Below, one piece after another: positions 25,891 through 53,213 of a stretch of DNA of 53,330 nt (the first letter of the stretch is position 1; each line of letters starts with the position of its first letter). Under the pieces are notes generated by a model, which was not told the DNA's origin, did not search any database, and saw nothing but the letters and a program-made list of their open reading frames with translations. The DNA lies in IMG/VR virus record IMGVR_UViG_3300042922_000577, positions 1-53,330 of that record, one strand, 5' to 3'. A program made the position numbers and the translations under genes. This DNA comes from a virus.

Positions 25891-26120
25891 CAGTCCTCCT
25901 CGTCCGCCCGGTAGACGGTCGTGGCGAGGGTGACGCCGGAGACGAAGACGATCTCGCCCTCATCCCCGAGCCCGAACGCATCGACGATGCCGTCGCCGTC
26001 CAGGTCGACATCGGTCGGAAGGAGCGGGCTCTCGACGCCATTGGCGACGTGCGCGAGGAGGATGGACCGGATGGTGTTCCGGTCCTCCGCGCTGAGTTCT
26101 GCGACCTCGGGTGTGATCAT
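25890..26120 (-). CDS. small EF-hand-like protein
   Basis: 76 residues. N-terminal helix (AELSAEDRNTIRSILLAHV), then DVDLDGDGIVDAFG, an Asp-rich loop of the D-x-D-G-D-G-x-x-D kind found in EF-hands, dockerins and thrombospondin repeats, and a beta end. One calcium-binding loop is likely. Located between the last minor tail gene and the endolysin. ATG lies 7 bases after TGG-TACGAT with no Shine-Dalgarno. Confidence 0.7.
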   Translation of the reverse strand: MITPEVAELSAEDRNTIRSILLAHVANGVESPLLPTDVDLDGDGIVDAFGLGDEGEIVFVSGVTLATTVYRADEED

Positions 26121-26136
26121 GGGGCAGATCGTACCA
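26121..26136 (-). promoter_or_regulatory. possible leaderless promoter
   Basis: On the minus strand TGG-TACGAT (-10 at 26133-26128) is followed by 7 bases and the ATG at 26120. Confidence 0.45.
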
Positions 26137-26841
26137 TTACGCGATCTCGAACACCCCTTCGATCACGACACGCGAGCCCGCGAGGTAGGAGTAGTTCGAC
26201 GGCACCAGGGGGATGCCCGAGTTGTTCCCGCCGCCCGAGTTCGCGTTGCGCGCGGCCTTCATCACGGTCGAGGAGATCGACTCCACCACGCGCGGCTGGA
26301 TCGTCGTGCCGCCGGGGGAGACCAGACCGAGGCCAGTGAAGTCCCACCCGGGACCGGCGAGCGAGACCCAGCACGGAACGATCTGCTGCCCGCTCGGCGC
26401 CGCCTGCAACGGCAGGGCGAAGGCGTAGTCACCGGCGCCGCCCGAGGTCGTGTTGCCGAAGAACAGTTCGATGCGGAAGGCGATCAGCTTGCGGCCGATG
26501 TACTTGTACCGACCGAGGAGCGTGCCGTTGTTCAGCACCGGCGCCGAGTTTGCGGCCGTCCAGGTCGGGGTGTAGCTGATCCAGTCGCTGGTTTCGATGA
26601 CCCAGCCGCCCTCGTAGACCTGGGTCTGCTTGGTGTCGCGCACGTACACGCGGTCGCCATCGGTGGGGCTGGGGAAGAGGCTGTCGCGCGCGGCGTTGTT
26701 CGCGACGCTGAGCGGGAGGTCGTAGCCGTCGAGCGCGTTGGCGACGCTCTGCGCCATTTGCAGGAAGTTGTCCTCGAAGGGGATCAGGGGCGATCCGACG
26801 ATCGGGTACCAGATCGGCCAGCGGCCGTTGAGGTTGGGCAT
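26137..26841 (-). CDS. minor tail protein, possible receptor-binding tip
   Basis: 234 residues. N-terminal WPIWYPIVGSPLIPFEDNFLQMAQSV, then a region typical of phage tail fibre starts (DGDRVYVRDTKQTQVYEGGWV), and a C-terminal Gly/Ser-rich beta domain. This plan is usual for distal minor tail proteins in actinophages, where it contacts the host surface. ATG follows TAGGAT by 6 bases, without Shine-Dalgarno. Confidence 0.7.
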   Translation of the reverse strand: MPNLNGRWPIWYPIVGSPLIPFEDNFLQMAQSVANALDGYDLPLSVANNAARDSLFPSPTDGDRVYVRDTKQTQVYEGGWVIETSDWISYTPTWTAANSAPVLNNGTLLGRYKYIGRKLIAFRIELFFGNTTSGGAGDYAFALPLQAAPSGQQIVPCWVSLAGPGWDFTGLGLVSPGGTTIQPRVVESISSTVMKAARNANSGGGNNSGIPLVPSNYSYLAGSRVVIEGVFEIA

Positions 26842-26853
26842 GTCGGAATCCTA
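26842..26853 (-). promoter_or_regulatory. possible leaderless promoter
   Basis: TAGGAT on the minus strand (26853-26848), six bases, then ATG at 26841. The only gap of note (16 bases) between minor tail genes. Confidence 0.45.
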
Positions 26854-26857
26854 TCTC

Positions 26858-27451
26858 TTAGACCGGGTTGGTGAAGGTGGCGATGACGGTGAGGCTGGCG
26901 TAGTTGCCAGAGCGGGCCGGGAAGGCGTTGGAGTTCAGCGGCCGAAGCTCCAGCGTGCACGAGGTCACGCCGCCGGAGAATGCACCGACGCCCGGCAGGC
27001 CGAAGTTCGGCGAGAGGATGTTGTTGACCTGGGAGGCTGCGGCATCCTTCGCCGGGGCGAAGATGGGCGACGCGATACCTGCGATCACGATGCGAGCCTC
27101 GCAGATCGTGAGGCCGCCGGAGAGCGTGTCGACCGCCGCCGCCCCGCCCATGGCCACGATGCTCAGGTCCTGCCACTCGTCAGGGTGGCGGATGTCAACC
27201 GTGGCCACGACGTTCCATCCGGCCACGAGCCCGAAGCCGGTGGAGGAGCCCTGGCCGACGACGACGAACGGCATGCTGCGGATGGTCTTCGCCATGCGCT
27301 GGGCGGCGGCGTTCTGGCCCTTGTTGACGTTGAGGGCTTCGGCATCCTCGCGCTCGTTGCGGGCGGCCTGCTCCTCCAGGCGCTGCTCGACGTAGCGGGT
27401 CCAGGGGCGCGAGAGGCGGTCGAGGTTCGGGAGCGGGAAGCGAAGACGCAT
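26858..27451 (-). CDS. minor tail protein
   Basis: 197 residues; ATGA overlap with the large minor tail gene. N-terminal helical segment with many Arg and Glu (YVEQRLEEQAARNEREDAEA), then a C-terminal beta-rich domain (VVVGQGSSTGFGLVAGWNVV and onward) with two cysteines. Helical stem plus beta head suits a tail-tip trimer. Assigned by position and composition. Confidence 0.65.
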   Translation of the reverse strand: MRLRFPLPNLDRLSRPWTRYVEQRLEEQAARNEREDAEALNVNKGQNAAAQRMAKTIRSMPFVVVGQGSSTGFGLVAGWNVVATVDIRHPDEWQDLSIVAMGGAAAVDTLSGGLTICEARIVIAGIASPIFAPAKDAAASQVNNILSPNFGLPGVGAFSGGVTSCTLELRPLNSNAFPARSGNYASLTVIATFTNPV

Positions 27452-29697
27452 CAGTCCTCCAGGGAGAGCGGGGCGGCGCTGAACTCAGCGAAGGTGGCAC
27501 GCTCGGCGAGGAGCGTGTTGAACGACTCGAAGGTGTTCGGCAGGCCGCGCTCGGCGAACTGCTGGGTGAGCCAAGTGTTGAGGTCTCCGGCGGTGGTGTC
27601 GTTCTCCGCGGTGTAGCTGATGCTGGCCGGGGTGATGTCCGTCGTGCGCAGGCGATACCAGAGGCCATCGCGGAAGGTGCGCGCGCCCGCGACGTTGCCG
27701 AAGGCCTGGTTGACGAAGGCGTCGGCGACGGTCGCGGCCCACTCGTCATTGAACGCCCCGAAGTCGAACCCCACGTACTCGGCGTTGAAATCTGCGAATG
27801 TCGTCCAGCCCTGGTCGGCCGCGTATTCGTTGAAATCTCCGAATGTCGGGTAGGCGTACGAGCCCGACTCGCCCGACCGGTTGATGCCGGTGGTCTCGAC
27901 TCGGATGGTGTGACGGGGGCCGCCGTAGCGCGACAGCATCCAGGCCATCGCGTCGTAGAGGTCGGAGAGGTTCGTGACGAACTCGGAGTCGAGCGTCGCA
28001 CCGACCTCGACCGTGGTGTCGTCCTCGGTGGCCGAGGTGATCAGCCGGATGGGGCCGTGCTTCTCGTAGAAGACGCCGGTGCCCACGAGCCGGAGGCTGG
28101 AGTAGTTGTCGCTCGGTCCCGCGGATGCCGCGATGCGGAAGGGGGCGTAGCGCTCGATCTGGGCGCCGGTGATCCGGATGAGGAGCGAGCGCGTGTCGTC
28201 CCCGATCGAGACCTCGACCTTGCCGCCCGCCTCCAGCCACTGCGACGCGGGGACGGGCAGGCCGTCCGAGCCGACCACGGAGTAGACGCTGGTCGGGCCG
28301 ATGTACTCGCGGCTCACGTAGTTCTGGGCGATCGGCTGGGAGATCGACGACAGGCTCGCGTTGATCGGAACGTCGTACTCGATCGTCTCCCCGGCATCCA
28401 CCGTGTAGACCTGCACCTGGTCGTTCCAGCCGCCGTCCGGGTAGGCGAGCCCCGCGGTGCGCTGCGTAGTCTCGTACCAGTAGCCCTCGACGGCGAGCGC
28501 GAGGCTGGAGTCATCCATCGACCAGGAGAAGTCCTTGTCGCGTCGGTCGACCGTGATGCGCCCGCGGATGGGGCGGATGATGATGTTGTCGGACGCCTGG
28601 GTGATCTCGCCGCCCTTGATCGCGAGCAGGCGCTTCATCTGGAGCCAGACCTCGGCCTGCCAACCCGGGAAGGTTCCGGTCATGGTCGAGTACACGGGGT
28701 CGATGACGTAGCCGTCCACGATGCCGACGAGCCCGAGCAGGTAGATGAAGTAGTTCCGGAGCGTGCCGGTGAAGGGCTGGGCGGTGCGCTCGACGGACAG
28801 CGCGACCGTGCGCTGATCCAGCTGCACGCTCGTGCCGGTAAGGCTGCCGGAAGGGACACGCGCCGTCCCCGAGGTCACGCCCTGCCCGCGGTCAGTGAGC
28901 GTCATCGTCTTCCGCGAGAGGCGCTTGGCGGCCACGCGGCTGCCGCCGTTGAACAGGTCGATCGAGATGCTGCCCCCGGCGCCCGTGGTGTCGGTCGGGT
29001 CGACGCTCGTGGCCTCCTCGTGCACCGAGTAGCCCGTGTCGCCCTTCAGCACCTCGGTGCCGGGGATGAGGGTGCGCTCCTCCAGGGCGGTCGGCGAAGC
29101 GTCCTCGGCGCCCGTCCAGATCACACGCTGAAGCTCGGTGTTGAGCGCGGGGTCGAGATAGAAGCCGCCCGACCCCTCTTCGAAGTCGATCTCCTGGATG
29201 TCGACCGTCATGCCGGAGGCGCCGCCGGTCTGAATGACGGCGACGCCAGCCGAAGTCCCGGCGGTTCCGGTGATGCTATTGCCAGTGACGACAAAGTCCT
29301 GGAAGACATTCGCCTCGGTGACCGTGATCACACCAAGCGTGGATTGGCCCGTGGAAGAACTAATGGTCCCTCGGACGGCGATTGTAAGATTGCCGACCGC
29401 ACTCGCTCGAATGCGAAGCTGAACGGTAACCGTCACCCCCACCCCGCGGGGCATGCCTGGCCCGATGATAATGTCCGCCACGCGGGCGGCTGTGGTCGCG
29501 GTGGTGCGGGTGTGACGGTAGGCCGTGGGCGTGCGCCCCGGGAGTCCGGTGAGCGTGGAGCGGGTGCCGAGCGTCGCGGCTCCGAAACCGGTGAGGCTCG
29601 CTGCCCGCGGGTTCTGGAAGAGGTTCCGACGCTTCTCGACCCAGGGGGTGTAGCCGCCATTGCCATTCGTGACCTTGACTTCGATGCCGGTGGTCAC
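27451..29697 (-). CDS. large minor tail protein (baseplate hub/tip)
   Basis: 748 residues from a GTG in a GTGA overlap. Residues about 20-185 form a carbohydrate-binding-like beta sandwich starting NLFQNPRAAS. The centre is the long beta-rich region typical of actinophage hub proteins with an inner helix pair (NYFIYLLGLVGIVDGYV). Near the C-terminus a degenerate repeat occurs: FGDFNEYAADQG, FADFNAEYVG, FGAFNDEW. The repeat is visible in DNA as GTTGAAATCT-C/G-CGAATGTC-like copies at about 27783 and 27831. Works at the tail tip with the two smaller minor tail proteins. Confidence 0.75.
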   Translation of the reverse strand: MTTGIEVKVTNGNGGYTPWVEKRRNLFQNPRAASLTGFGAATLGTRSTLTGLPGRTPTAYRHTRTTATTAARVADIIIGPGMPRGVGVTVTVQLRIRASAVGNLTIAVRGTISSSTGQSTLGVITVTEANVFQDFVVTGNSITGTAGTSAGVAVIQTGGASGMTVDIQEIDFEEGSGGFYLDPALNTELQRVIWTGAEDASPTALEERTLIPGTEVLKGDTGYSVHEEATSVDPTDTTGAGGSISIDLFNGGSRVAAKRLSRKTMTLTDRGQGVTSGTARVPSGSLTGTSVQLDQRTVALSVERTAQPFTGTLRNYFIYLLGLVGIVDGYVIDPVYSTMTGTFPGWQAEVWLQMKRLLAIKGGEITQASDNIIIRPIRGRITVDRRDKDFSWSMDDSSLALAVEGYWYETTQRTAGLAYPDGGWNDQVQVYTVDAGETIEYDVPINASLSSISQPIAQNYVSREYIGPTSVYSVVGSDGLPVPASQWLEAGGKVEVSIGDDTRSLLIRITGAQIERYAPFRIAASAGPSDNYSSLRLVGTGVFYEKHGPIRLITSATEDDTTVEVGATLDSEFVTNLSDLYDAMAWMLSRYGGPRHTIRVETTGINRSGESGSYAYPTFGDFNEYAADQGWTTFADFNAEYVGFDFGAFNDEWAATVADAFVNQAFGNVAGARTFRDGLWYRLRTTDITPASISYTAENDTTAGDLNTWLTQQFAERGLPNTFESFNTLLAERATFAEFSAAPLSLED

Positions 29698-30575
29698 AGG
29701 TCCATACCCGTCTCGACGAGGCGCGCCGTCAGCGACACGCGATCGAACACAGCCGAGTAGGGCGTTTTCGCGGGCTTGCCGACGAACTGGCATCCGGAGT
29801 GGCCCTGGCCGGAGATGAAGTTCTGGGCGACGGGAGCGACGCCGGTCGGGAGAATCTGCACGACGAGACCGTACAGCGTGAAGGTGCGGGTGCTGAGCGC
29901 CTGGGTGAACCCAAGCACGATGCCCGAGGACTGGTCGCTGGTGAACTCGGTGTTGACCAAGTTCGCCTCCAGGCCCAGCGTCGTGATCGGGACCGGCGTG
30001 CCGACCGTGGTGTAGCCGTTCACCCGCTGCACCTGCATGATCCCCGAGGTGTCCGCGTGCACGCCGACCCACGCCGAGTGCCCCGGCGGGATGGGGATGT
30101 ACTGCGAATACGACAGGCTGGAGGGCTTCTGGGTGAACTGCGCCGAGCGCGCCGGGTACCGGAAGGCGTTGGCGGGGGTCGTGACGGCCTTGGGGCGGCC
30201 GGAGCCGTCCGCATCCGTGATGAGCGGCGGAGCGTCCTCACAGCCCAGCGAGGGCGTTGCCATGGCCTGATTCAGGACGTTGGCGTCCCGGGCCATCGGG
30301 TCGATCCAGTAGACGAGGTTGACGCCATCGAGCAGGTCGTAGACGCCATCGGCGAAGTCCGTGATCCGCCGGATGGCCTCACGGTCGTTCGAGATGCCCC
30401 AGTCGAGCACGTACACGTTGTGGGCGTTCTTCGACTCGCGGTAACCCGCGCCGCCGCCGGTGTACTGCTGCTCGCCGGAGGACCACCCCGCGCGGGTGTA
30501 GTCGGGGTTGATGCCCGGCGTCGGAATCCAGGTCTCGAATCCACGGGTGCCGAACCACGTCCGCTTCTTGCTCAT
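29694..30575 (-). CDS. minor tail protein, distal-tail type
   Basis: 293 residues; ATGA overlap with the tape measure gene. The first gene after the tape measure is normally the distal tail (Dit-like) protein that ends the tube. The sequence begins MSKKRTWFGTRGFETWIP and is beta-rich, with VYDLLDGVNLVYWIDPMA in the centre and a second beta domain at the end, as in a two-domain distal tail protein. Assigned from gene order and length. Confidence 0.75.
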   Translation of the reverse strand: MSKKRTWFGTRGFETWIPTPGINPDYTRAGWSSGEQQYTGGGAGYRESKNAHNVYVLDWGISNDREAIRRITDFADGVYDLLDGVNLVYWIDPMARDANVLNQAMATPSLGCEDAPPLITDADGSGRPKAVTTPANAFRYPARSAQFTQKPSSLSYSQYIPIPPGHSAWVGVHADTSGIMQVQRVNGYTTVGTPVPITTLGLEANLVNTEFTSDQSSGIVLGFTQALSTRTFTLYGLVVQILPTGVAPVAQNFISGQGHSGCQFVGKPAKTPYSAVFDRVSLTARLVETGMDL

Positions 30576-34072: not shown

Positions 34073-34088
34073 GCGCGCTCTCTCCGGG

Positions 34089-35368: not shown

Positions 35369-35377
35369 CGTGGGCGA

Positions 35378-36130
35378 TTACGGGCTGGTTACCGTGACCG
35401 CCGTGGAGGCGAGGCTACCCGGCATCTTGGCCGTGACGTTCGCCGTACCAGCCCCCACGATCTCGATGATGCCGTCCGTGACCCGCGCGACCGCCTGGTT
35501 GGAGGAGGTCCACTCGGCGTTGCGCGTCACGTCGTTGCCCTCGTAGGTCGCCCGGCGCAGCGCCAGGGTGCCCACGGCGCCCGTGACGGCTCCACCGGCC
35601 ACGGTGACGGCCGTGGGGGTCGCGGCGTCGACCACGATCCAGGGCGCGACGCTGCCGCGGGGCAGGAGCGACTGGATGTAGGCGTAGCCGCCGGTGCCTT
35701 CGGTGTCGGGCTCGTAGCCGTCCGTCATCACCTTGTAGAGGTTCACCCAGTCGCCCGCGGCGGCCGGGGTGCGGCGGTCGACGAACCCGATGCGCTCGAC
35801 GAGCACGAGTTCGGTGCCGCGGGTCTTCACGAGGTTGAACGCCTGGCGGAGGATCGAGGAGGTGTCGGTCGCCTTCGGGAAGAAGAACGGCACGCCGCCG
35901 CCGAACTGCATGAAGCCACGCAGCGTCTCCGTGGCGTCGTCGTCGAGCGAGCGGTCGTCTTCCTGGTCCGACGCCTGCATGCCGAAGTCGAGGCCGTCCC
36001 AGCGGACAGCCGGGGCGCACGGGAGCAGCGCGTTGATCTGGGTGGCGTTGATCTTGGTGAAGTCGGTGACTCCGGAGGCCAGGCCCAGCCACAGCTGGAC
36101 CCGCTTGTTCGAGAGGTCGCGAGTAGGCAT
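35378..36130 (-). CDS. major tail (tube) protein with Ig-like domain
   Basis: 250 residues; ATG with CGGAGAAC upstream. The first about 170 residues carry a tail-tube-like alternation (VQLWLGLASGVTDF; PFFFPKATD; TRGTELVLVERIGFV). The last about 70 residues match a bacterial Ig-like (BIG2) domain: LALRRATYEGN, EWTSSNQAVARV, GIIEIVGAGTANVTAK. Such domains decorate the tail surface. Preceded by a strong ribosome site and followed by a terminator, so highly expressed. Confidence 0.82.
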   Translation of the reverse strand: MPTRDLSNKRVQLWLGLASGVTDFTKINATQINALLPCAPAVRWDGLDFGMQASDQEDDRSLDDDATETLRGFMQFGGGVPFFFPKATDTSSILRQAFNLVKTRGTELVLVERIGFVDRRTPAAAGDWVNLYKVMTDGYEPDTEGTGGYAYIQSLLPRGSVAPWIVVDAATPTAVTVAGGAVTGAVGTLALRRATYEGNDVTRNAEWTSSNQAVARVTDGIIEIVGAGTANVTAKMPGSLASTAVTVTSP

Positions 36131-36144
36131 GTCGTGTTCTCCGG

Positions 36145-36732
36145 TCAGACCAGCGTGTAGCGGTCGATGTAGTTGCCGGTCGGGACCGGGGACTGGGTGA
36201 GCTTCAGGTTACCGCGGTCCTCCTTCACGTCCACCGGCACGTCCGTGTAGGTGTCGTAGATGGAGATGATCTGGCCCGCAGCGAACGCGGCCGTCGAGGC
36301 GAAGCCGATGCGGTCGACCCAGCCGTAGCGGGCGTCGACCGAGTTGTTCAGCTGCGTGAACAGGTTGAACACGCCGGTGTCGGCCTTGTTGCGGTCGCGG
36401 AGTCCGGTGATCTCGGCCTCGATGTTGGCGAACGTGGGGTCCGCCTCGTTGCCGATCGAGCAGATGGTCAGTTCGGTGTCGGTCTCGCTCTCGCCCATGC
36501 CGAGCGTCACGTCGTCGAGGACGGCGCACGAGATGTTGCCACCGTGTGCGGCGCCGGTGGCGTTGGTCGTGGTGACCTGGCGCCAGGCGTCGAGGATGGC
36601 CACGGACGGCGTGAAGAACGGCGTCGTGGTGCCGGTCGGCGAGACGATGACGAGCGAGCCGTCCGCCTTCTCGTAGACGGGCACCTGCATGATGGTGCGA
36701 TTGGCTCGGAGGAGCCGGTCGATGCTGGTCAC
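36145..36732 (-). CDS. second tail-tube-like protein
   Basis: 195 residues; starts ATGA-style inside the end of the preceding gene. Beta-rich, with TELTICSIGNEAD and ANIEAEITGLRDRN in the region where tube proteins carry their long beta hairpins. Length, order and general pattern resemble the tube protein that follows, but it lacks the Ig domain. Either a paralogue that caps or starts the tube or the true tube protein. Assigned mainly by context. Confidence 0.6.
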   Translation of the reverse strand: MTSIDRLLRANRTIMQVPVYEKADGSLVIVSPTGTTTPFFTPSVAILDAWRQVTTTNATGAAHGGNISCAVLDDVTLGMGESETDTELTICSIGNEADPTFANIEAEITGLRDRNKADTGVFNLFTQLNNSVDARYGWVDRIGFASTAAFAAGQIISIYDTYTDVPVDVKEDRGNLKLTQSPVPTGNYIDRYTLV

Positions 36733-37133: not shown

Positions 37134-37146
37134 GCGGCAGAGTCTA
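37134..37146 (-). promoter_or_regulatory. possible leaderless promoter
   Basis: TAGACT on the minus strand (37146-37141), 7 bases, ATG at 37133. It would give the tail tube operon its own late start site. Confidence 0.4.
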
Positions 37147-40190: not shown

Positions 40191-40202
40191 GGGGGCAGTA
40201 TA
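40191..40202 (-). promoter_or_regulatory. possible leaderless promoter
   Basis: TATACT on the minus strand (40202-40197), six bases, ATG at 40190. It would restart transcription for neck and tail genes after the capsid terminator. Confidence 0.5.
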
Positions 40203-40358: not shown

Positions 40359-41510
40359 TTAGGAACCGGCGCCCGTGGTGAAGCCGATCGCCGTGTTCCA
40401 CAGCGCCGAGGCGCCGGTGACGTGGCGGACCTTCGAGACCACGGAGTCCGAGTCGAAGTCGCCCTCGGCCTCGGGGTTGATCTCGCCGCCGCCGTTGGCC
40501 GACTTGGCGTTCGAGTCCTTGATCCAGAAGGACGGCTCCGGGTAGCCCTGGAGGCGGTTCCGGGTCAGGACCGGCAGGTCGTCGCCACCGGCGACGGGGA
40601 CGATGATCGCACCCTTGCCCATGTTCGGGTAGAGCGTCCGCAGCCACTTCCAGCCGATGACCTCGACCTCGGCGCCGTAGTCGACCGTCTCCTCCCAGGA
40701 GTAGCCCGTCTGCGCGCCCGGGTTGCGGACGATGCGACGGCCCTGGATACCCTGGCGCACCAGCGGCGCGTTCGGGATCGAGGTGAGGATGACGAACTTG
40801 GTGTAGTCGACATCCTGGCCCTCGACCTGCACGCCCTGAAGCTGCGCGATGGCAGTGGCGAGTTCCACCGGGTCCATGAGGTCCGGGTTGCCCGTCAGCG
40901 CCGTCGCGCCGTTCAGGCCGCCGCCGGTGCCCGTCCGGAAGCCCGAGGCGTTCACGAGCAGGCTCGCGACCTCGATCTCGTTCTGGTTGGCGGCGTGGCG
41001 GCCGAACATCGCGATGGCCTCGCGGAGGTGGTTGACGTTGGTGCCGCGGGAGTTGACGATCGTCTCCCAGTCGATACCGAACGCCTCGCCGGTCTTGGAG
41101 ACCCGACCCTTCTTGCCGGAGGCCTGGAGGCCGATCTGGGGGTACGACTCACGGCGACCGACGCGGGGCAGACCGCCGGGGACGAACTGCTTGCCCTCGT
41201 GGGAGCCCGGGATGTTGTCCTGGTTGAACCCGTAGAGGTTGTACTCCTCGTCCCGGTCGATGCCCGTGAGTTCCCACTCGGTGGTGAAGCGCTCGGCCAC
41301 CTGCGGGATTTCGCGGTAGTACGCCCGCAGGGTGCGGACGATGGCGGGCTGAAGCTGCGTCGGCAGATCACCGTAGGCGATCGACTCGGCGAACTTGATC
41401 TGGGCCTGCTCGCGCTGGCGGCGCGTGGGGAGCGGACCGTCCTTGACGGCGGCCTTTCCCTCGGCGGTCCGCCAGAGCTTGAACGCTTCCAGCTGGCGTG
41501 CGGTAGGCAT
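40359..41510 (-). CDS. major capsid protein
   Basis: 383 residues; ATG with CAGGAGATC upstream. HK97-like organisation: helical N-terminal arm (LPTRRQREQAQIKFAES), a spine-helix region (VNHLREAIAMFGRHAANQNEIEVASLLV), a central sheet (YTKFVILTSIPNAPLVR) and a C-terminal beta region (GKGAIIVPVAGGDDLPVLTRN). Order after the decoration protein and followed by a strong terminator. Self-assembles into the head, with the product at 41936 as protease and scaffold. Confidence 0.88.
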   Translation of the reverse strand: MPTARQLEAFKLWRTAEGKAAVKDGPLPTRRQREQAQIKFAESIAYGDLPTQLQPAIVRTLRAYYREIPQVAERFTTEWELTGIDRDEEYNLYGFNQDNIPGSHEGKQFVPGGLPRVGRRESYPQIGLQASGKKGRVSKTGEAFGIDWETIVNSRGTNVNHLREAIAMFGRHAANQNEIEVASLLVNASGFRTGTGGGLNGATALTGNPDLMDPVELATAIAQLQGVQVEGQDVDYTKFVILTSIPNAPLVRQGIQGRRIVRNPGAQTGYSWEETVDYGAEVEVIGWKWLRTLYPNMGKGAIIVPVAGGDDLPVLTRNRLQGYPEPSFWIKDSNAKSANGGGEINPEAEGDFDSDSVVSKVRHVTGASALWNTAIGFTTGAGS

Positions 41511-41527: not shown

Positions 41528-41932
41528 TTACGCCGAAGCGACGCTGATCTTGTCGGGGACGAGCTGGACCCAGATGTCGGTCCCGGCGACCGGCTTGGCC
41601 TCGGTGAGGTAGCCGATCGGGAAGTTGCCGGTCGCGGTGAGCGTGACCGCACCCGCGGCGGTGATGTACACCGTGGCGCCGTCCGTCGCGGTACCGGCGG
41701 TGCCGGAGATGCGGACGTGCGCGGCGGTGTCGACCTGGGCGTAGTAGTTCCCGTCCTCACGCAGACGCGGGGTGTCGACGATGACGCCGATCTTCGCGCC
41801 GACGCGGGCGATCTGGTTGATGGCGGCGGCTGCGGAGCCTCCGGGGAGACCGGCCTCGGACGAGCCGAGGTTCACCGTCTTCACCCAGATGGATGCCCAG
41901 TTCGCGCTGTCGTTGACGACCTTGGCGGCCAT
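41528..41932 (-). CDS. capsid decoration/head fibre protein
   Basis: 134 residues; ATG with GGAGGTG upstream. Beta-rich with Gly, Thr and Val and a C-terminal barrel-like stretch (GATVYITAAGAVTLTATGN, then PIGYLTEAKP), similar to DUF2190-type head proteins. Position between the protease/scaffold and capsid genes is the standard place for a decoration protein that stabilises the head. Confidence 0.72.
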   Translation of the reverse strand: MAAKVVNDSANWASIWVKTVNLGSSEAGLPGGSAAAAINQIARVGAKIGVIVDTPRLREDGNYYAQVDTAAHVRISGTAGTATDGATVYITAAGAVTLTATGNFPIGYLTEAKPVAGTDIWVQLVPDKISVASA

Positions 41933-42334: not shown

Positions 42335-43078
42335 CTGCTTCTCCTTCTGGGTGTTCCGCGACGGGGCCGTCTCGGAAGTCTCGCCGAGCACCTTGCGGGC
42401 CTCGGTCTTCTCGCGCGGGTCGCCTGCGACGCCGATGGCGAACGTGGCCGCCTCGCGGATGGTCATGTGCTCGATCAGGGCCTTCGCGCTCTCGGTGGCC
42501 ACCTTGACGATGGCCCCGTCCGCGCCGGGAGCCTCCACGAAGTCGACCGCGTTGTACGGCGACTCGCTCATGGGCAAGAACCGCTTCACGATCTGGGCGC
42601 CGCGCTCGCTGCGCTTCGGGACCATGACCGGCTCGTCGTTCTCGTCGGTCACCACGTCGCCGTCAGCGTCGAGCTTGGCCACCATCTCGATCTCGGCACC
42701 GGCGGAGATGGAGGTGCCGATCACGTCGGCGAACTGCCGGATGAAGTCGCTGGGCTCGCCCTCACGCACGAGTGCGTCGGCGTACATGCCGTCCGCCTCG
42801 GCCTTCGGGAGGCTCGTGGTCTTGGCCATGATCCGGCGGACATCGCCACCGGCCTCGCAGAAGCCGTCGTGGTTGGCGCGCATGCGGGTGCCGACCGGGA
42901 AGGTGTCCGCGAAGTCGCGCTCGATGACGCTCACGGGGTAGTCCGCGCTGGAGCCCTCGACGACCTTGGAGCCCGGCTCCCAGCCCATCAGGCGAACGCG
43001 AATCTTCTGACCCTTGCCCTCCGGCACGACGGCGCGCGTGCCCTGTCGGTAGCCCGACTCCTTCACGCTGATCGTCAT
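41936..43078 (-). CDS. capsid maturation protease with C-terminal scaffold domain
   Basis: 380 residues; ATG of MTISVKE chosen over an earlier in-frame start. The N-terminal about 235 residues form the protease-like part (beta-rich, with RMRANHDGF and SAGAEIEMVAKL; the catalytic set cannot be named by eye). The C-terminal about 130 residues are a charged Ala/Glu helix with KPE-type turns, typical of scaffold. It should cut itself and capsid-protein ends during head maturation. An internal ribosome site at 42334 allows a scaffold-only product. Confidence 0.72.
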   Translation of the reverse strand: MTISVKESGYRQGTRAVVPEGKGQKIRVRLMGWEPGSKVVEGSSADYPVSVIERDFADTFPVGTRMRANHDGFCEAGGDVRRIMAKTTSLPKAEADGMYADALVREGEPSDFIRQFADVIGTSISAGAEIEMVAKLDADGDVVTDENDEPVMVPKRSERGAQIVKRFLPMSESPYNAVDFVEAPGADGAIVKVATESAKALIEHMTIREAATFAIGVAGDPREKTEARKVLGETSETAPSRNTQKEKQMEAEEAQTIAENAATAAVKAYVESQAAPAPEQPSLGDIAEAVVTAGLTEAGRKAVYERVDRGVPVAEAIESEKAHEDAIRKELSASAAPAKRESVLDFGFTENDLTGTPLKGTEGELDQSKVDEAFDEMVEV

Positions 43079-43131
43079 AGCTCTGGAGCGTACACGATCG
43101 AACGTCTGTTCATGCACCGAGCGGCATGAAC

Positions 43132-44709: not shown

Positions 44710-44721
44710 GCGCTGATCCTA
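44710..44721 (-). promoter_or_regulatory. possible leaderless promoter before portal
   Basis: TAGGAT on the minus strand (44721-44716), 6 bases, ATG at 44709. Two ATTTTCGC direct repeats (44729-44736 and 44749-44756) lie upstream and could be activator sites. Confidence 0.5.
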
Positions 44722-47177: not shown

Positions 47178-47307
47178 CGTGCACCTTGATTTCCACCAGG
47201 AACTGCTGATCGTGCGTCCGCGCGGTGAATGTGCCGTCGTCATTGCGTTCGAGGTCGGCACGCTCGGCGATGATGCGGAGGATGTCTTCTGCTGTCGGGT
47301 AAGGCAT
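47161..47307 (-). CDS. small hypothetical protein
   Basis: 48 residues. A helix (TAEDILRIIAERADLER), then two strands (TFTARTHDQQFLVEIKVHDV). ATG lies 6 bases after TAGGAT, with no Shine-Dalgarno. It would start the packaging operon transcript. Overlaps the probable small terminase by 17 bases. Confidence 0.6.
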   Translation of the reverse strand: MPYPTAEDILRIIAERADLERNDDGTFTARTHDQQFLVEIKVHDVTGS

Positions 47308-47319
47308 GGCGTGATCCTA
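47308..47319 (-). promoter_or_regulatory. possible leaderless promoter before packaging genes
   Basis: TAGGAT on the minus strand (47319-47314), six bases, ATG at 47307. The upstream DNA includes CAGCT/AGCTG inverted repeats (47320-47335). Confidence 0.5.
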
Positions 47320-47328
47320 CAGCTTCGG

Positions 47329-49041
47329 TCAGCTGAAGAGTGCCGGGTCGGCGGCCATCATCGTCGTGAGCAGGTCGGCGATGGCCTGGTGGCCCGTGTC
47401 GTTCGGGTGCAGGCCGTCACCGGTGTGTAGAGCCTTCCAGCGGCCGGAGTCGAGGGAGGACTCGACCGCCGGAGCGATGTCGAGCACGCGCGCCAGCAGG
47501 TGTCGAGGGTGGCCGACGAGCAGGGCACCGGGCGTGCCGATCGCCACGCGCGTGAGCGTCGTCGGGTCGAGCGGCGCCCCAGCCCGGAAATACTGGTTCG
47601 CAGTGACCCGGCGTGGCCCCTGGGTCGCGTTGACCGTCTGGTTCGTGACGGTGGCGTAGGCGTCGGTCGAGCCCGAGTTGGGCAGTAGGGTGAACCACGC
47701 GATGCGCTGGCCCTGGTGCCGCTTCCAGATCGTGATGCAGTCGTCGATGTACTGCTCGGCGGTGCGGTTCGCCCGGATGTCGTTGATGCCGTAGTTGCCT
47801 GCGAGCCAGCCGCTCGCGATTGCCAGTTCGTACCGGCTGCGCGAGGTGGGCAGGGGGTCGGTGTGAGCCGTCGAGCCCACGTCGGTGCGGTTCACGTAGG
47901 CCTGTGCGGTCTCGCCGGAGCGGTTTGCGATGAAGAACGAGCGCCCGGCAAGCGCCCGCGACAGGAAGTTTCGCGCGGTCGTGCCGGTGGAGCCCTCGCC
48001 TCCCATGATCGAGTCGCCGAGTCCCGTCGTGACGCCCTCGCCGGACCACTCGGTGAGGATGTAGGCCGGAGCGAACATGCCACTGCCGGAGTTCGAGAGC
48101 GCGCCGCCCATGGTGATGTCGGCGAGGTCGGTGCCGCGGGCCACTCCGTCGATGTTGGCCGCCGGGAGGTGGGTGAAGTGCCACTCCGTGCCGCCACGGG
48201 TCAGGTGGGTCCAGAAGGCGATGGCGTCGCCCGCGTTGTGGGGGAAGATGATCTCGTCGGAGATCGCCCAGGAGCGCGCCGGAATGGTCACGCTGGCGGC
48301 TCCGGCCCACGTGATCTGCACGGCCTGGTTGACCGAGCCTCGGAGCGTGATGGGGCCGGGTGCGGCGTTGTAGTAGGCCGCGCGCAGGATGAGACCGGCG
48401 CGGATCATGGTGTGCGTGATCTTGCTCACCATGGTGTTGTTCGTGGTGTCGCGTCCGCTGAAGTCGAACCGCGGGTAGCGCGGAGATACCGGCACGAGAC
48501 CCGTTCCGAGAAGCCCGCGGACGGGGCGGATCACCGCGCTGTCCACCTTGGTCGCCACGGCCTGCGAACTGGCCGAGGCGGGGTCTCCGAGGATGGTGGC
48601 GACCAGCCCGTCCGCGGTGGCGACGATGCCGCTGCTGGGGTCGGCCGGGATCGCCGTGGTGAGGTCGAGCACGCTCCCGGCGGGAAGGTAGAAGCTGAAC
48701 GAGAACGGCGAGACGCCTACGAGTTCGACGGCGGCCGTGTAGGTGAAGTCGGTGGGGTCGCCGGGGCTGTTCGAGGCGATGAGGCGGACGCCCTGCTGGC
48801 CGTCAGGGCTGATGAGGTAGCCGTTGGAGTCGAGGCTGAGCGTCACCGCCTGCTGGAACATCGTCACCGGGTTCGGCGTCACGAACGGGAGCTTGACCCG
48901 CGGCGCGGTGGGGGCGATGACGACCTTCCCCTGCATCGGGAGCATGTCCGGCTCTCGATTGGGGTCGGCCGCATCGACCACCGCCTGAATGAATTGCCCG
49001 ACGACGGTGCCGTAGAGCACTCCGCTTGGAAGATCAGCCAT
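47329..49041 (-). CDS. SGNH/GDSL hydrolase tail-associated protein
   Basis: 570 residues. The C-terminal about 240 residues carry SGNH blocks: GLGDSIMGG (Ser, about 343), GNYGINDI (Asn, about 417) and DGLHPNDTGH (Asp/His, about 541). The N-terminal 300 residues are beta-rich and resemble tail-fibre or minor tail modules (FTYTAAVELVGVSPFSFSFYL). Such enzymes remove acetyl groups from host surface sugars. It is unusual in lying upstream of the terminase, apart from the other tail genes. ATG is 6 bases after TACGAT. Confidence 0.8.
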   Translation of the reverse strand: MADLPSGVLYGTVVGQFIQAVVDAADPNREPDMLPMQGKVVIAPTAPRVKLPFVTPNPVTMFQQAVTLSLDSNGYLISPDGQQGVRLIASNSPGDPTDFTYTAAVELVGVSPFSFSFYLPAGSVLDLTTAIPADPSSGIVATADGLVATILGDPASASSQAVATKVDSAVIRPVRGLLGTGLVPVSPRYPRFDFSGRDTTNNTMVSKITHTMIRAGLILRAAYYNAAPGPITLRGSVNQAVQITWAGAASVTIPARSWAISDEIIFPHNAGDAIAFWTHLTRGGTEWHFTHLPAANIDGVARGTDLADITMGGALSNSGSGMFAPAYILTEWSGEGVTTGLGDSIMGGEGSTGTTARNFLSRALAGRSFFIANRSGETAQAYVNRTDVGSTAHTDPLPTSRSRYELAIASGWLAGNYGINDIRANRTAEQYIDDCITIWKRHQGQRIAWFTLLPNSGSTDAYATVTNQTVNATQGPRRVTANQYFRAGAPLDPTTLTRVAIGTPGALLVGHPRHLLARVLDIAPAVESSLDSGRWKALHTGDGLHPNDTGHQAIADLLTTMMAADPALFS

Positions 49042-49053
49042 ACGTGGATCGTA
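49042..49053 (-). promoter_or_regulatory. possible leaderless promoter before SGNH gene
   Basis: TACGAT on the minus strand (49053-49048), six bases, ATG at 49041. A GGGGAGGG lies too far (about 20 bases) to serve as ribosome site. Confidence 0.5.
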
Positions 49054-49074
49054 GCGGACCCTCCCCGGGTTACC

Positions 49075-49323
49075 TCACTGCGACGACGCGCTCAGCTGGT
49101 CGAACTCGTTCTGCCAGTCCCGCAGCGCCTCGCGCCGGTAGTCGGTGTTCTCCCAGCGCAGCCGCCGGATGCGCTCCAGGCGCCGCCGCCCGGGGATCGT
49201 GAAGATGACGTGGACGAGCGTCAGGCTGACCACCGCGCACGCCGCCAGCATCACGAGCCCGAGTAGCAGCTGCGCCCAGAGCGGCCAGTGGGCGAGCATC
49301 CCCGGCCCCCAGTAGGTGATCAC
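49075..49323 (-). CDS. small membrane protein
   Basis: 82 residues from GTG (GTGA overlap). One or two hydrophobic segments (MLAHWPLWAQLLLGLVMLAACAVVSLTLVHVIF, read as a hairpin or one long segment), then a cytoplasmic Arg/Glu-rich helical tail. Function unknown. Confidence 0.65.
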   Translation of the reverse strand: MITYWGPGMLAHWPLWAQLLLGLVMLAACAVVSLTLVHVIFTIPGRRRLERIRRLRWENTDYRREALRDWQNEFDQLSASSQ

Positions 49324-49460
49324 GAGCGCTGCTCCCGCGGCCGATGCAGGTGGCACCGCCCGGTCGCGTGGTTCGTCAGCTTCTGGCAATGCTTCCGCCA
49401 GGCCACCACGTGACGCCCGACCTTGGGGCCATCGATTGCGTACATGCAGCGCTTGCTCAC
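49320..49460 (-). CDS. small Cys/His protein
   Basis: 46 residues from GTG (GTGA overlap on both ends). Basic, with three Cys and several His (RCMYAIDGPK; KHCQKLTNHATGRCHLH), enough to bind zinc. Short but coupled on both sides and codon-typical. Confidence 0.55.
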   Translation of the reverse strand: MSKRCMYAIDGPKVGRHVVAWRKHCQKLTNHATGRCHLHRPREQRS

Positions 49461-49996
49461 AGGTCACCCCGCAGGATGCGGTCGCCCGCCTCGACGGCCT
49501 GGGCGGCACTCAGGAGCATGATGTCGTTCTGGTCGAGCATCACGCGCGCCCGGCCGCCGGTGCGGTGCTCCCAGTGGCCTCGCGGGTCCGGAATCCACCG
49601 CCCCACGCCCGTCACGTCCTGGTCGGCGTCGTTGCGGCGGCCGTGCTGCTCGGGGTTGAACTCGGTGCGGGAGGTGACCCACAGCGTGTCGTTGCCGTCG
49701 AGGTGGACCTGGAGGTTGACGTGACGGTCCCTCTCCTGCGCCTTCCAGGCCTCGCGCAGGCTCGCCTCGACCGGCTCCGTCAGTTCGGGGACGACCTGAT
49801 CGAGCATCGCTTCGAGCGACGGCGAGCCGAACACCTTGACGATGACGGCGGGCAGAACGTCGCCCGCGCGAGGGTCGTTGCCCCGCTGGGCGGCCTGGCC
49901 AGCCTGGCGCCGGTTGTTGACGATCTGGCGCACGTCGTTGTCGTCCAGGGTGTACAGGACGTGCGCGCCGAGCAGGGGGTGGATGTTCGTGTTCAT
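49457..49996 (-). CDS. hypothetical protein
   Basis: 179 residues; ATGA overlap. Starts with a helix (GAHVLYTLDDNDVRQIVNNRR), with an extended middle and strand-rich end. No enzyme motif. Part of the continuous block of small genes 49075-52241. Confidence 0.7.
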   Translation of the reverse strand: MNTNIHPLLGAHVLYTLDDNDVRQIVNNRRQAGQAAQRGNDPRAGDVLPAVIVKVFGSPSLEAMLDQVVPELTEPVEASLREAWKAQERDRHVNLQVHLDGNDTLWVTSRTEFNPEQHGRRNDADQDVTGVGRWIPDPRGHWEHRTGGRARVMLDQNDIMLLSAAQAVEAGDRILRGDL

Positions 49997-50340
49997 GCTG
50001 AGGGCTCCTCGGGGATGTCGATGGTGCGGGTTTCGATGATGTAGGGCGGGCCGAAGCGTTCGAGATCGACCAGCACCTGAACCTCCTGGAGGAAGCCCAG
50101 GCGCCGGAGGTCGGCGTTGAATCCGACCATGAGCTTGTGGACCTCCTCGGGAGTCGCCTGCTCACCGTGCGAGCGCATCTCGTCCCAGATGAAGCCGTTC
50201 GCCCGGCAACTGGCGCATGCGCCGCAGGGCAGGTGGCCGATCAACCGCTGATCACCGATGCCCGGCGTGATCCGAACGCGGTTCGTGCATCGGTCGGAGG
50301 CTCGGATGACCTCGATCGCTTCGAGGTAGCTCAGGCTCAT
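49993..50340 (-). CDS. hypothetical protein with CxxC site
   Basis: 115 residues; ATGA overlap. GHLPCGACASC gives three close cysteines, with another Cys upstream (DRCTN), a likely zinc site. C-terminal part helical then beta. No family assigned. Confidence 0.68.
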   Translation of the reverse strand: MSLSYLEAIEVIRASDRCTNRVRITPGIGDQRLIGHLPCGACASCRANGFIWDEMRSHGEQATPEEVHKLMVGFNADLRRLGFLQEVQVLVDLERFGPPYIIETRTIDIPEEPSA

Positions 50341-50882
50341 TTCGGCACCATCTCGGGGTCGATGCGCTCCTCGCCGTCGTCGTACTCGACGCTCTCCCAG
50401 TTCGGGTCGCCCTGGAGCCGCGCGGAGACGCGCAGAGCGAGCGTCCGGGCGTCGGTGGTCTCCTCGACATGCGAGAGCGAGTCGAGGATGTCGGTCCGGG
50501 CCTGGAGGTGGGCGCCCAGCTGCTCGTGGAGCTTGTTCACGGCGCTCATCTCGCCCGCGAGGTAGGCACGCCGGGAGACGACGTGGATCGACTGGCTGAT
50601 GTCCTGCCAGCGCACGTCGGCCCACTCGGTGGCGGCGATGGCCTCGATCGCCCCGTCCGCGATGGACAGGGCCGTCTTGTCGGCGTCGCCGTCGAGGATC
50701 GGGAAGAGCCCGGGCAGGTTGTGACGCATGAACGCGACCATCGTGGGAAGGTCATCGAACAGGACGCGGGTGGAGCCGTCTCGCTCGTCTCGGGTGTCGA
50801 CCCAGAAGGCGATACCCTCCGCGCCGTCGAAGCTGAACGGCCCCATCTGGTCGCTGGGCTCGGGGATGGTGTTCTCGGTCAT
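50337..50882 (-). CDS. hypothetical protein
   Basis: 181 residues; ATGA overlap; ATG of MTENTIPEP chosen for the overlap. N-terminal beta-like (DGAEGIAFWVDTRDE), then helices (LFDDLPTMVAFMRHNLPGLF; IADGAIEAIAATE). Acidic. No motif recognised. Confidence 0.7.
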   Translation of the reverse strand: MTENTIPEPSDQMGPFSFDGAEGIAFWVDTRDERDGSTRVLFDDLPTMVAFMRHNLPGLFPILDGDADKTALSIADGAIEAIAATEWADVRWQDISQSIHVVSRRAYLAGEMSAVNKLHEQLGAHLQARTDILDSLSHVEETTDARTLALRVSARLQGDPNWESVEYDDGEERIDPEMVPK

Positions 50883-51367
50883 GCTCGTAGCTCCTTCTCG
50901 TTGGCGAGCGCCCACTGGGCGCCCTCGATGAATCGTTCTCGGGCGTCCTCGTTGTAGCCGTACGGGTCGCTCCGGGCCACGCCGGTCTCGCCGAACGGGT
51001 CGTCCACCTCGTGGTCCGGCGGGTACCGGCGCATCGCTTCCTCGGCGATGGCCTCCTGCTGCTGCGCGAAGGCCCGGGCCAGGCGCTGCACGACGGCATC
51101 GACCGTGGGCACCGGGGTGGCATTGGCGCTGTCGAACCGCTGCATCTCGGCCGCGATGTCGCCGGTCAGCTTCTCGCGGCGCGCGTCGGCGCCCTCCTGG
51201 TCCAGGGCGCTCTTGGCCTCGTCTCGCCAGCGGTTCACGGCGATGGCGGGGTAGTGCCGGGTGAACTCGCCCCAGTTCGCGGGGTAGCCCAGGTCGACGT
51301 ACAGCGCCGACTGCGCAGCCGCTTCGTAGAGCTCCTTCGCCTTCTTCTCGACCGCGCCGTCGCTCAC
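50879..51367 (-). CDS. hypothetical protein
   Basis: 162 residues; GTG in a GTGA overlap. Helical with many Ala, Glu and Arg; about 70-105 may be a coiled coil (AVVQRLARAFAQQQEAIAEEAM). C-terminal FIEGAQWALANEKEL. Function unknown. Confidence 0.68.
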   Translation of the reverse strand: MSDGAVEKKAKELYEAAAQSALYVDLGYPANWGEFTRHYPAIAVNRWRDEAKSALDQEGADARREKLTGDIAAEMQRFDSANATPVPTVDAVVQRLARAFAQQQEAIAEEAMRRYPPDHEVDDPFGETGVARSDPYGYNEDARERFIEGAQWALANEKELRA

Positions 51368-51843
51368 GAGTCCGCCTCCAGCCGCACGAGGGCGATCCGG
51401 CCCCTGGCCCAGTCGACCTGTCGGAAGGTGGCGAGGGCCTGCGTGCTGAGGGTCGCCAGGGTCTGGACGGTCGGCAGGTCGAACACGCGCGCCGCCTCCG
51501 GCCCCCAGCGCTCGTTGCGCCGCGGGTCTTCCGCCCAGTCGGCCAGCGTGTGAATGTCGACGAACTGCGCGCCGGTGCGGGTCTTGTAGCCGTCCTTCCG
51601 GAACCGGTCGAGGTACAGCCGAACGAACGGGTCGTGGCTGCGCTCGTAGTACCCCGCCTTGCGCGGATCGGGCATGGTCGACCGCGCCTCGCGCTCGATC
51701 ACCCGCAGGCTCTTTGCCTTCGCGATCGTCTGGCCGGACAGCACGCCGAGGTGCAGTTCGTCCGGGTGGATCGGGATTTCGAGGGAGCGCACCTCGACCG
51801 TGAGGAGGTTCGTGACGCCGCGGGTGAAGTCGATGACGCTCAT
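51364..51843 (-). CDS. hypothetical protein
   Basis: 159 residues; ATGA overlap; the earlier in-frame ATG overlaps more of the previous gene and is less likely. Mixed alpha/beta with many Arg and Asp (LYLDRFRKDGYKTRTGAQF). No motif recognised. Confidence 0.68.
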   Translation of the reverse strand: MSVIDFTRGVTNLLTVEVRSLEIPIHPDELHLGVLSGQTIAKAKSLRVIEREARSTMPDPRKAGYYERSHDPFVRLYLDRFRKDGYKTRTGAQFVDIHTLADWAEDPRRNERWGPEAARVFDLPTVQTLATLSTQALATFRQVDWARGRIALVRLEADS

Positions 51844-52241
51844 CGCTGACCCCCGACCGTGATGGTGTCCCACTCGACCTCATCGAACTCGTCGCGGATG
51901 TCAGCGGCCATGCGCAGCAGAGCCTCGGCCGTGTCGACGCGGAAGATGATGTTGAGGTAATCGTTCCAGCTGGAGGGATCGGCACGCACGACGCCGCCGG
52001 AGAGCGTGACCTTGTTCACGGCGCGGTATGTCTCCTCGCCATCACGGGTGAACCGGTCGACCTCGATCCAGGTGGAGAGGGGGAGGGCCATGCCGTCGAC
52101 GATCTCGCGCTGACAGATCAGGCGCTTCGGCTTCGCGGCCGACTGGCCCTTGCGGACCTGGAGCACGATGTCATCCGTAGTCAGGTGGCGCGTGATGCGC
52201 TGCACCTCTCGGGTCGTGCGGGTGGTGGTGCGGGTGGACAT
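51840..52241 (-). CDS. hypothetical protein
   Basis: 133 residues; ATG with AGGAAGGAC upstream. Thr/Arg-rich start, beta-type centre (DIVLQVRKGQ; LSTWIEVDRFTR) and an acidic helix near the end. It starts a six-gene overlapping run just after the tRNA. Confidence 0.7.
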   Translation of the reverse strand: MSTRTTTRTTREVQRITRHLTTDDIVLQVRKGQSAAKPKRLICQREIVDGMALPLSTWIEVDRFTRDGEETYRAVNKVTLSGGVVRADPSSWNDYLNIIFRVDTAEALLRMAADIRDEFDEVEWDTITVGGQR

Positions 52242-52313
52242 GGGTGTCCTTCCTGTTCGAGGGCCGTGATGCGGGTGGCCTTGCTGTTCTGATGTGGGGT
52301 GTTCAGTGGTGCG

Positions 52314-52386
52314 TGGACGAGGCAGGGATCGAACCTGCGGCCTCTCGATTTTCAGTCGAGCGCTCTGCCTACTGAGCTACTGGTCC
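52314..52386 (-). tRNA. tRNA-Phe (GAA)
   Basis: 73 bases on the minus strand. Anticodon arm CTCGA-CTGAAAA-TCGAG gives anticodon GAA. D-arm GCTC...GAGC, T-arm GCAGG-TTCGATC-CCTGC. Acceptor GGACCAG/CTCGTCC has one C-C mismatch at the fifth pair. Discriminator A; no encoded CCA, so the host must add it. Only complete tRNA found. Confidence 0.95.
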
Positions 52387-52511
52387 GTTCCTGGCGACCG
52401 AGGGCCGAGTGGGGGTGTCCTGGAAGACTCTCGGCCCCCGATCTGGCAGGGGGTGTATCTGGGGGATACGGGTGCGACGCTACCGGTTGGGTAGGCGTTT
52501 GTCTACTTGGA
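52387..52511. other. gap between tRNA and small gene
   Basis: No gene or strong hairpin is visible in these 125 bases. Probably a transcribed spacer that processes into the tRNA. The shorter gap 52242-52313 holds the ribosome site of the gene at 52241. Confidence 0.5.
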
Positions 52512-52688
52512 TTACGGGCAGCCCTCGCAGGGCGCCTTTTCGGTGAGGTGGACGGCGCTCGGCACGCTGGAGGCACGCCCGGACGGCGCGGCGGTGGCGT
52601 CGCCGACCTTCGGGGTGCTCGGGCGCTTCGGGGCCTTGCTCGGGTCGGGGAGGTCGGCTTCGGTCTGGGAGGGGAGTGGCTTCTGCAT
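52512..52688 (-). CDS. small hypothetical protein with C-terminal CxxC
   Basis: 58 residues. Rich in Pro, Ser, Ala and Lys, probably disordered, with CEGC near the end (APCEGCP), a possible metal knuckle half. ATG follows TAGGCT by six bases, with no Shine-Dalgarno. Normal codon bias supports it. Confidence 0.5.
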   Translation of the reverse strand: MQKPLPSQTEADLPDPSKAPKRPSTPKVGDATAAPSGRASSVPSAVHLTEKAPCEGCP

Positions 52689-52700
52689 GCGGGCAGCCTA
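52689..52700 (-). promoter_or_regulatory. possible leaderless promoter
   Basis: TAGGCT on the minus strand (52700-52695), six bases, ATG at 52688. Would transcribe the small gene and the tRNA-Phe. Confidence 0.4.
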
Positions 52701-52904
52701 CTCTCGCCGCTCACCCAGCGACAGCCGCTCGGCAACGCGCTCCCACAGCTGTCCCGGGGTGCGCTCCGGCACGCGGTGGAAGACGTTCACCGCGATCTCG
52801 TCGGCACGCAGGCGGCGGTCGCCGTCCGCCCACATCTCGCACCACAGGGGCATCTGGTCGTCAGGTATGGGGCCACCGGAGACCGTGAGCAGCGGGGCGC
52901 TCAT
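52698..52904 (-). CDS. small hypothetical protein
   Basis: 68 residues; ATGA overlap, ATG of MSAPLLTVS. Beta-like start (PLLTVSGGPIPDD), then WCEMWADGDRRLRADEIAVNVF and a helical end. A possible HNH- or zinc-type site is not present. Unknown. Confidence 0.62.
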   Translation of the reverse strand: MSAPLLTVSGGPIPDDQMPLWCEMWADGDRRLRADEIAVNVFHRVPERTPGQLWERVAERLSLGERRE

Positions 52905-53197
52905 CCGTGCACCCGCCGGAAGTGGGCGTCCAACACGCGAGAGATGCGGCGCAGGGTCCACCGCTCTCGGAAGGTCATGCCGCGGGGCCACCGGTGGAAC
53001 ACCTCGGGGCAGGCCCAGAGGGACGGGTCGTGCTGGCGGTAGCCGCGCAGCGTGACCGTGCCGACCTTCACCTCGTGGGAGGGGATGCGGTGCTTCGCGA
53101 GGATTTCGGCGGCCTGGTGCTTCATGGCCTTGATGACTCCGGGCTGCATGGGCCAGGGCGGGGATGGGAACTTGGGCTTGCGGTCTGATCTGCTCAT
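52901..53197 (-). CDS. small basic protein, first gene of right arm
   Basis: 98 residues, basic, with Pro-rich start, a helix (PGVIKAMKHQAAEILAKH) and an Arg-rich C-terminus (RERWTLRRISRVLDAHFRRVHG). ATG lies six bases after TGA-TACATT and has no Shine-Dalgarno. First gene of the right arm, so a candidate late regulator. Unassigned. Confidence 0.65.
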   Translation of the reverse strand: MSRSDRKPKFPSPPWPMQPGVIKAMKHQAAEILAKHRIPSHEVKVGTVTLRGYRQHDPSLWACPEVFHRWPRGMTFRERWTLRRISRVLDAHFRRVHG

Positions 53198-53213
53198 TGG
53201 GCGAATGTATCAG
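53198..53213 (-). promoter_or_regulatory. possible leaderless promoter for right arm
   Basis: On the minus strand TGA-TACATT (an extended -10; hexamer 53209-53204) is followed by six bases and the ATG at 53197, so transcription would begin at the A of the start codon. In the circular genome this promoter points away from the left-arm promoter region. Confidence 0.5.

Follow-up and report, generated by a model that had tools for sequence, protein, structure and literature searches.

Leaderless messages, which open directly on a start codon, have been described in several bacterial groups and in a few of their phages. About 19% of actinobacterial genes are leaderless, with a TANNNT hexamer ~12 bp upstream of the start codon (Zheng 2011, PMC3160421), and in Mycobacterium tuberculosis leaderless transcription accounts for a quarter of the genes whose primary start has been mapped, the mycobacterial element again being TANNNT with no -35 consensus (Cortes 2013, PMC3898074). 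In Deinococcus, a -10 motif next to the open reading frame (ORF) has been shown by experiment to drive leaderless expression (PMC12340547). Among phages, middle and late mRNAs of the Thermus phage phiYS40 are described as leaderless (Sevostyanova et al. 2007, as cited in PMC3594737), and the SigA-like promoters PL1, PR2, and PL2 of Cluster O mycobacteriophages are predicted to initiate at the first nucleotide of the start codon (PMC4351075). Here, we analyze a 53,330-base virus record (IMG/VR IMGVR_UViG_3300042922_000577, hereafter the window, taken at its full length), in which TANNNT hexamers stand just before the start codons of particular right-arm genes and probably serve as promoters of leaderless late messages.

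The window is 68% G+C and carries a direct terminal repeat of 127 bases. The left arm, on the plus strand, encodes a helicase, an exonuclease, an annealing protein, and a primase; the right arm, on the minus strand, encodes the terminase, portal, protease, capsid, and tail proteins. An original prediction had named nine minus-strand starts with TANNNT 6-7 bases before ATG, and all nine hexamers and distances were exact, with a spacer of 6 at seven starts and of 7 at ATGs 37133 and 26120. From the start of the right arm inward, these are TACATT (53204..53209, at the edge of the terminal repeat) before ATG 53197 of a 98-amino-acid (aa) unknown gene, the first of the arm; TAGGCT (52695..52700) before ATG 52688 of a doubtful 58-aa gene; TACGAT (49048..49053) before ATG 49041 of a 570-aa tail protein with a GDSL/SGNH esterase domain; and TAGGAT (47314..47319) before ATG 47307 of a 48-aa ORF with a 21-bp gap. 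This ORF lies immediately ahead of the gene that precedes the large terminase, and homologues of that following gene carry the same geometry in three closer relatives, G001, G002, and G003. Further along are TAGGAT (44716..44721) before the portal start, ATG 44709; TATACT (40197..40202) before ATG 40190 of the 157-aa gene after the capsid gene (phrog_18316); and TAGACT (37141..37146) before ATG 37133 of a 134-aa gene directly ahead of the tail-tube genes. The last two are TAGGAT (26848..26853) before ATG 26841 of a 234-aa gene and TACGAT (26128..26133) before ATG 26120 of a 76-aa gene. In both cases, the full gap to the preceding gene is 16 bp and the promoter would fit wholly inside it, leaving no space for a leader. 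The list was correct but overlooked a tenth member, the head maturation protease, whose ATG at 43078 follows TACGCT (43087..43092, minus strand) at a spacer of 8, with an expected leader of 0-2 nucleotides (nt).

With a probability of roughly 0.86, we read these sites as -10-only SigA-type promoters that would start late units on the A of the first ATG, with internal cistrons translated via Shine-Dalgarno (SD) sites. About ten genes on the right-arm strand would thus carry a minimal promoter of host type (SigA/sigma-70-like), consisting of a -10 hexamer and no detectable -35. RNA polymerase would begin transcription at the A of ATG, give or take 1-2 bases. Every unit's first cistron would be initiated in leaderless fashion on a 5'-terminal AUG, and downstream cistrons (decoration, capsid, tube, and tape measure) would rely on internal SD sites. 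Left-arm (early) units, by contrast, would have promoters that give rise to leaders of ~28-33 nt, with SD sites. Leaderless initiation at the listed starts is strongly supported by their exact spacing, weak SD pairing, orthologous conservation, and non-random hexamer letters. The late timing is a prediction, as "late" is assigned by gene content only, and the genes at 53197 and 52688 are not structural.

The geometry was clearly enriched at gene starts. Eight of the 37 called right-arm starts had it, compared to 0.32 expected, and none of 5,000 letter shuffles reached 8; a control with other spacers gave an expectation of 0.25 for the same 8. None of the 44 called left-arm starts had it. Among eligible starts, meaning those with room for a promoter, the counts were 8 of 29 in the right arm vs. 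0 of 30 in the left (P=0.002). Across all minus-strand ATGs, TANNNT occurred nine times at spacers 6-7 (eight of these at called gene starts) and only 0-3 times at every other spacer, while plus-strand ATGs had none at spacers 6-7. Even the raw TANNNT-N6-ATG pattern was seen 7 times compared to 2.1 expected, a level reached in 0 of 100 dinucleotide shuffles.

These same starts pair weakly with the ribosome. Mean anti-SD energy was -2.35 kcal/mol at the ten sites, vs. -7.0 at the remaining right-arm starts (P=3e-5) and -7.3 in the left arm, and all ten use ATG, whereas 20 of the 69 other starts use GTG. Apart from a weak AGGA at three sites and weak pairing at 52688, the ten have no SD site. 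By contrast, SD sites precede the major capsid gene (40359..41510; ACAGGAG), the decoration (cement) gene (41528..41932; GGAGGTG), and the two tail-tube genes (35378..36732), all on the minus strand. This agrees with what had been claimed for them, and the sites are kept in G001-G003. These genes presumably keep their SD sites because they lie downstream of the protease or of 37133 within their units. At ~35.3 kb, at least one right-arm unit looks leadered, as G001 has a TATGCT there followed by an SD-led start. In the window, ATG 35317 falls within a TATGCT hexamer, and the tail chaperone gene probably begins instead at an SD-led codon further downstream, as it does in G001.

The strand bias extends well beyond the window. 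Its portal, protease, capsid, and tail genes are homologous to those of the CMP1-like group and in the same order, and Clavibacter phage CMP1 is the nearest isolate that the phage collection contains (42% identity for both portal and capsid, 53-56% for the tubes). G001, G002, and G003 were the three closer relatives found by a capsid search of IMG/VR (capsid identity 68-83%); portal and tail-protein searches of IMG/VR found none, nor did a capsid search of cellular genomes. The host is probably a high-GC actinobacterium, likely of Micrococcales type. Pooled over 12 related phages, the geometry was present at 58 of the 375 eligible starts on the late strand vs. 7 of 423 on the other strand (Fisher P=2e-13, an optimistic value because the set includes close pairs, G002/G003 and Alleb/DejaVu, and so lacks independence). 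The late-strand spacing profile was sharp, with 31 sites at spacer 6, 29 at spacer 7, and ~5 elsewhere. The bias was present in most single genomes, although not in G004. Genomes added once the hypothesis stood agreed with it in part: Lyell and ISF9 were positive, including at the portal, and Frankenweenie was positive at the portal, whereas Montesquieu, LuckyBarnes, and D_HF5_3 were negative and the unrelated TM4 and PA6 were near zero. A division of two initiation modes between the arms, as originally proposed, is therefore upheld as a bias, in the window (8/29 vs. 0/30) as in the related phages. It does not amount to one mode per arm, because the right arm combines ~ten promoter-proximal leaderless starts with SD sites at most other cistrons.

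Conservation at orthologous starts was specific to particular genes. The portal start has the geometry in 13 of 19 other genomes, at spacer 6 in all of G001-G003 and also in the more distant CMP1, CN1A, Cassita, Alleb, DejaVu, ISF9, Lyell, Frankenweenie, Jojan60, and Pan2. The protease has it in 8 of 12 (G001-G003 at spacers 7-8, and CMP1, CN1A, Jojan60, Pan2, and Yappy), and the gene after the capsid in 9 of 14 (G001-G003 at spacer 6, and CMP1, CN1A, Pan2, Jojan60, Molivia, and G004). For 37133, all three homologues have it, with spacer 7 in both of the closer relatives that possess the gene, and for 26841 it is found in G003, CMP1, and CN1A but not DejaVu (2/3 plus G003). Genes of the SD type gave 0/26 for the tubes, 0/17 for the tape measure at its true start, 0/4 for decoration, and 1/14 for the capsid; the large terminase, tape measure, tube, and minor tail genes had no such geometry at true starts among the homologues examined. 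Compared orthologues share 23-62% protein identity (23-47% for the more distant phages), and the portal hexamers differ inside (TAGGAT, TACAAT, TAGAAT, TAAACT, and TATACT) while T, A, and T stay constant. Annotated coding-sequence starts also match the pattern without any start calling of our own, namely 5556, 13130, 19832, 22313, and 34751 in CMP1 and 9304, 10779, 12335, 15409, and 27440 in Jojan60. At two further annotated starts, the conserved -10 would shift the start (10374 vs. 10386 in CMP1; 13644 vs. 13713 in Jojan60).

The element itself resembles an actinobacterial SigA-type -10, being TANNNT with little or no -35. The lineage consensus is NGN-TAGRMT. For letters that played no part in selecting the sites, with the remaining TANNNT hexamers of these genomes as background, TAG[AG][AC]T occurred in 37 of 69 sites (3.9 expected), G at -2 in 44 of 69 (21 expected), and A at hexamer position 5 in 42 (12 expected). 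A conserved -35 or activator site was sought and rejected, since neither was seen in the 69 aligned late sites; an ATGCC-N6-GGCAT repeat occurs only in relatives, before the protease promoter. There, this repeat or a similar one abuts the protease -10 directly. The window has a perfect inverted repeat, GTTCATGC-N8-GCATGAAC, at 43108-43131, between the portal gene, which it directly follows, and the protease promoter. A phage-encoded sigma factor was also rejected as the late switch. No sigma-family match was found among 30 right-arm and 20 left-arm proteins (PHROGs) or ~37 window proteins (Pfam), some small left-arm genes lying outside the scan. The Jojan60 "RNA polymerase sigma-H factor" (L048:4281-4772) is homologous to the gene before the terminase in CMP1 (5556-6203) and to CN1A 50046, both of which have leaderless geometry. 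Its annotation is doubtful, and a small terminase or helix-turn-helix regulator is likelier.

Several observations weigh against promoters of leaderless messages. A -10-only promoter may be weak in GC-rich DNA. Two listed members are weaker than the rest, as 52688 has a marginal coding score, a 9-bp gap, and a short (58 aa) ORF with weak GAG/AGG pairing (-5.1 kcal/mol), and the ORF at 47307 has only 48 aa. Gene starts came from a codon-model caller, which mis-called G001, so that genome was read via homology. The raw spacer-7 pattern is at chance (2 observed vs. 2.1 expected in shuffles). Because the raw genome-wide count is weak, being only moderately raised even for spacer 6, we dropped it as the main test and made the main tests at gene starts. 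Montesquieu, LuckyBarnes, and D_HF5_3 have homologous portals and yet no late pattern, so the pattern is not universal.

Three of the nine starts (47307, 44709, and 26841) also have an AGGA at SD distance inside TAGGAT, ~7 nt from ATG, with a pairing of -4.0 kcal/mol. This raises the alternative that the hexamers are weak SD-like or re-initiation signals (AGGA, or TAG as a stop) within one long late mRNA, which the 16-21 bp gaps at some genes would suit. However, the inner letters vary among orthologues while T, A, and T stay, hexamers without AGGA are as common as those with it, and mean pairing is far weaker than at SD genes. Moreover, an SD signal would have no need of a T at either end of the hexamer (positions 1 and 6), and we consider this explanation very unlikely. 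It is also highly improbable that the sites are promoters whose transcripts start several bases away, giving short leaders or a start inside the gene with a downstream codon used instead. The spacers do range from 6 to 8, with 8 at the protease, and sigma-70-type start positions vary by 1-2 bases. Still, the sharp peak at 6-7 on the late strands of 12 genomes fits a start at A, and several proteins have homology that extends almost to these ATGs, falling no more than a few residues short.

A different question is why such starts exist at all, and here a host-driven default, in which any actinobacterial phage would have them and the late-arm bias would be incidental, is compatible with leaderless promoters. 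Leaderless genes are frequent in Actinobacteria (PMC3160421), and Giles (31-37 kb) and phiC31 (37-40 kb) each have a few such starts. However, these lie outside structural genes, except for an antisense site at 1826 in Giles, and the unrelated phages TM4 and PA6 have almost none. The CMP1-like lineage, by contrast, shows its late-strand bias at the same genes. The statement that all actinophages do this is thus contradicted by TM4, PA6, and the structural genes of Giles and phiC31, and we regard the default as unlikely. The original prediction also raised the possibility that the phage exploits a change in host ribosomes during infection; such a change, in ribosomes or initiation factors, would favor leaderless mRNAs. 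In phiYS40, the account cited in PMC3594737 has initiation factor IF2 expression going up and IF3 expression going down. Yet our PHROGs and Pfam scans of the window found no translation-factor-like gene, SD-led capsid and tube genes need translation simultaneously, and actinobacterial ribosomes translate leaderless mRNAs without infection. Because leaderless genes make up ~19% of the total in Actinobacteria and a quarter of those with a mapped primary start in M. tuberculosis, no such change is needed, and we consider this part of the prediction most improbable.

Compared with described systems, the leaderless late starts of the window lineage seem real, conserved, and not unprecedented. The actinobacterial host genes share the hexamer, its distance of ~12 bp, and the lack of a -35 consensus, but they are spread over the genome of the host, whereas the window sites occupy one strand and particular virion and assembly genes. 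Cluster O phages likewise have SigA-like promoters predicted to start on the start codon. Theirs are few and came from a -35/-10 search, and PL2 serves a single leftward gene within the structural operon rather than the virion genes themselves. In Deinococcus-Thermus, TANNNT at a fixed spacing is a leaderless promoter by experiment, but on the chromosome of a bacterium of another phylum (PMC12340547). For phiYS40, the likenesses are leaderless middle/late mRNAs, predicted in the window, and the same spacer-6 peak (28 sites); Pseudomonas phage YuA has no spacing peak. The confinement of leaderless starts to middle/late genes is likewise matched (58/375 vs. 7/423), with the timing inferred from gene content. 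The phiYS40 study reportedly mapped transcript ends, and reportedly the late promoters of this phage have only a -10 element. phiYS40 is, however, a Thermus phage of another lineage, with a proposed initiation-factor shift that the window phage would not need, and the transcript ends of the window are predicted. In the searchable literature, which excludes most subscription journals, we came across no account of a late-strand leaderless pattern that is gene-specific and shared across a lineage.

It is possible, though we hold this only tentatively, that a siphophage lineage carries an old, gene-specific program in which portal, protease, and connector are leaderless and capsid and tube SD-led, kept across host phyla (Clavibacter CMP1 and CN1A, Microbacterium phages, the recorded Stenotrophomonas phage Jojan60, and Pseudanabaena phage Pan2). 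If so, it could set low- vs. high-copy virion proteins, or it could be linked to a phage factor that, late in infection, steers the polymerase of the host toward -10-only promoters. Leaderless mRNAs in M. smegmatis are translated about as well as sigA-leader mRNAs, but a role in copy number is possible because an alternative model leaves lower leaderless efficiency open (PMC7148126). The lineage would thereby offer a testable case of how phages assign low- and high-copy virion proteins to different translation modes. It also provides a comparison-based case, beyond inspection by eye, for leaderless messages of particular late genes in one phage lineage; for many phages that have a sequenced genome and a culturable host, late promoters may be predictable at single-base precision, and gene starts could be corrected. 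Jojan60 also has a WhiB-like gene (L048, 44281-44544), of a kind typical of actinobacteria and their phages. With its host recorded as Stenotrophomonas, this points to a host shift or a doubtful host record.

In the left arm, a leadered promoter at 14426..14470 (plus strand) has TAGGAT, a leader of ~32 nt with GAAGGAGCAGA, and ATG 14470. Its plus-strand sisters at 5679, 7374 (TAAGAT), and 11569 (TAAGAT) have leaders of ~28-33 nt that end in GAAGGAGCAGA-type SD sites. The claim that left-arm leaders carry GGAGCAGA held only in part: it stands immediately upstream of the starts at 390, 7414, 14470, and 17756, while other left-arm genes have variants or other SD sites. Half-sites of ACAAAYGCACAT overlap the left-arm promoters at 5647-5674, 7342-7369, 11575-11586, and 14432-14443, in two cases as an inverted pair directly ahead of TAAGAT and in the other two immediately downstream of the -10. 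They are probably the operator of an early-gene regulator. The gene after the primase (21584-22039) has a weak helix-turn-helix match (HTH_Tnp_1, slightly below cut-off) and is a candidate regulator. In the right arm, a tRNA-Phe (GAA) gene lies at 52313-52386 on the minus strand.

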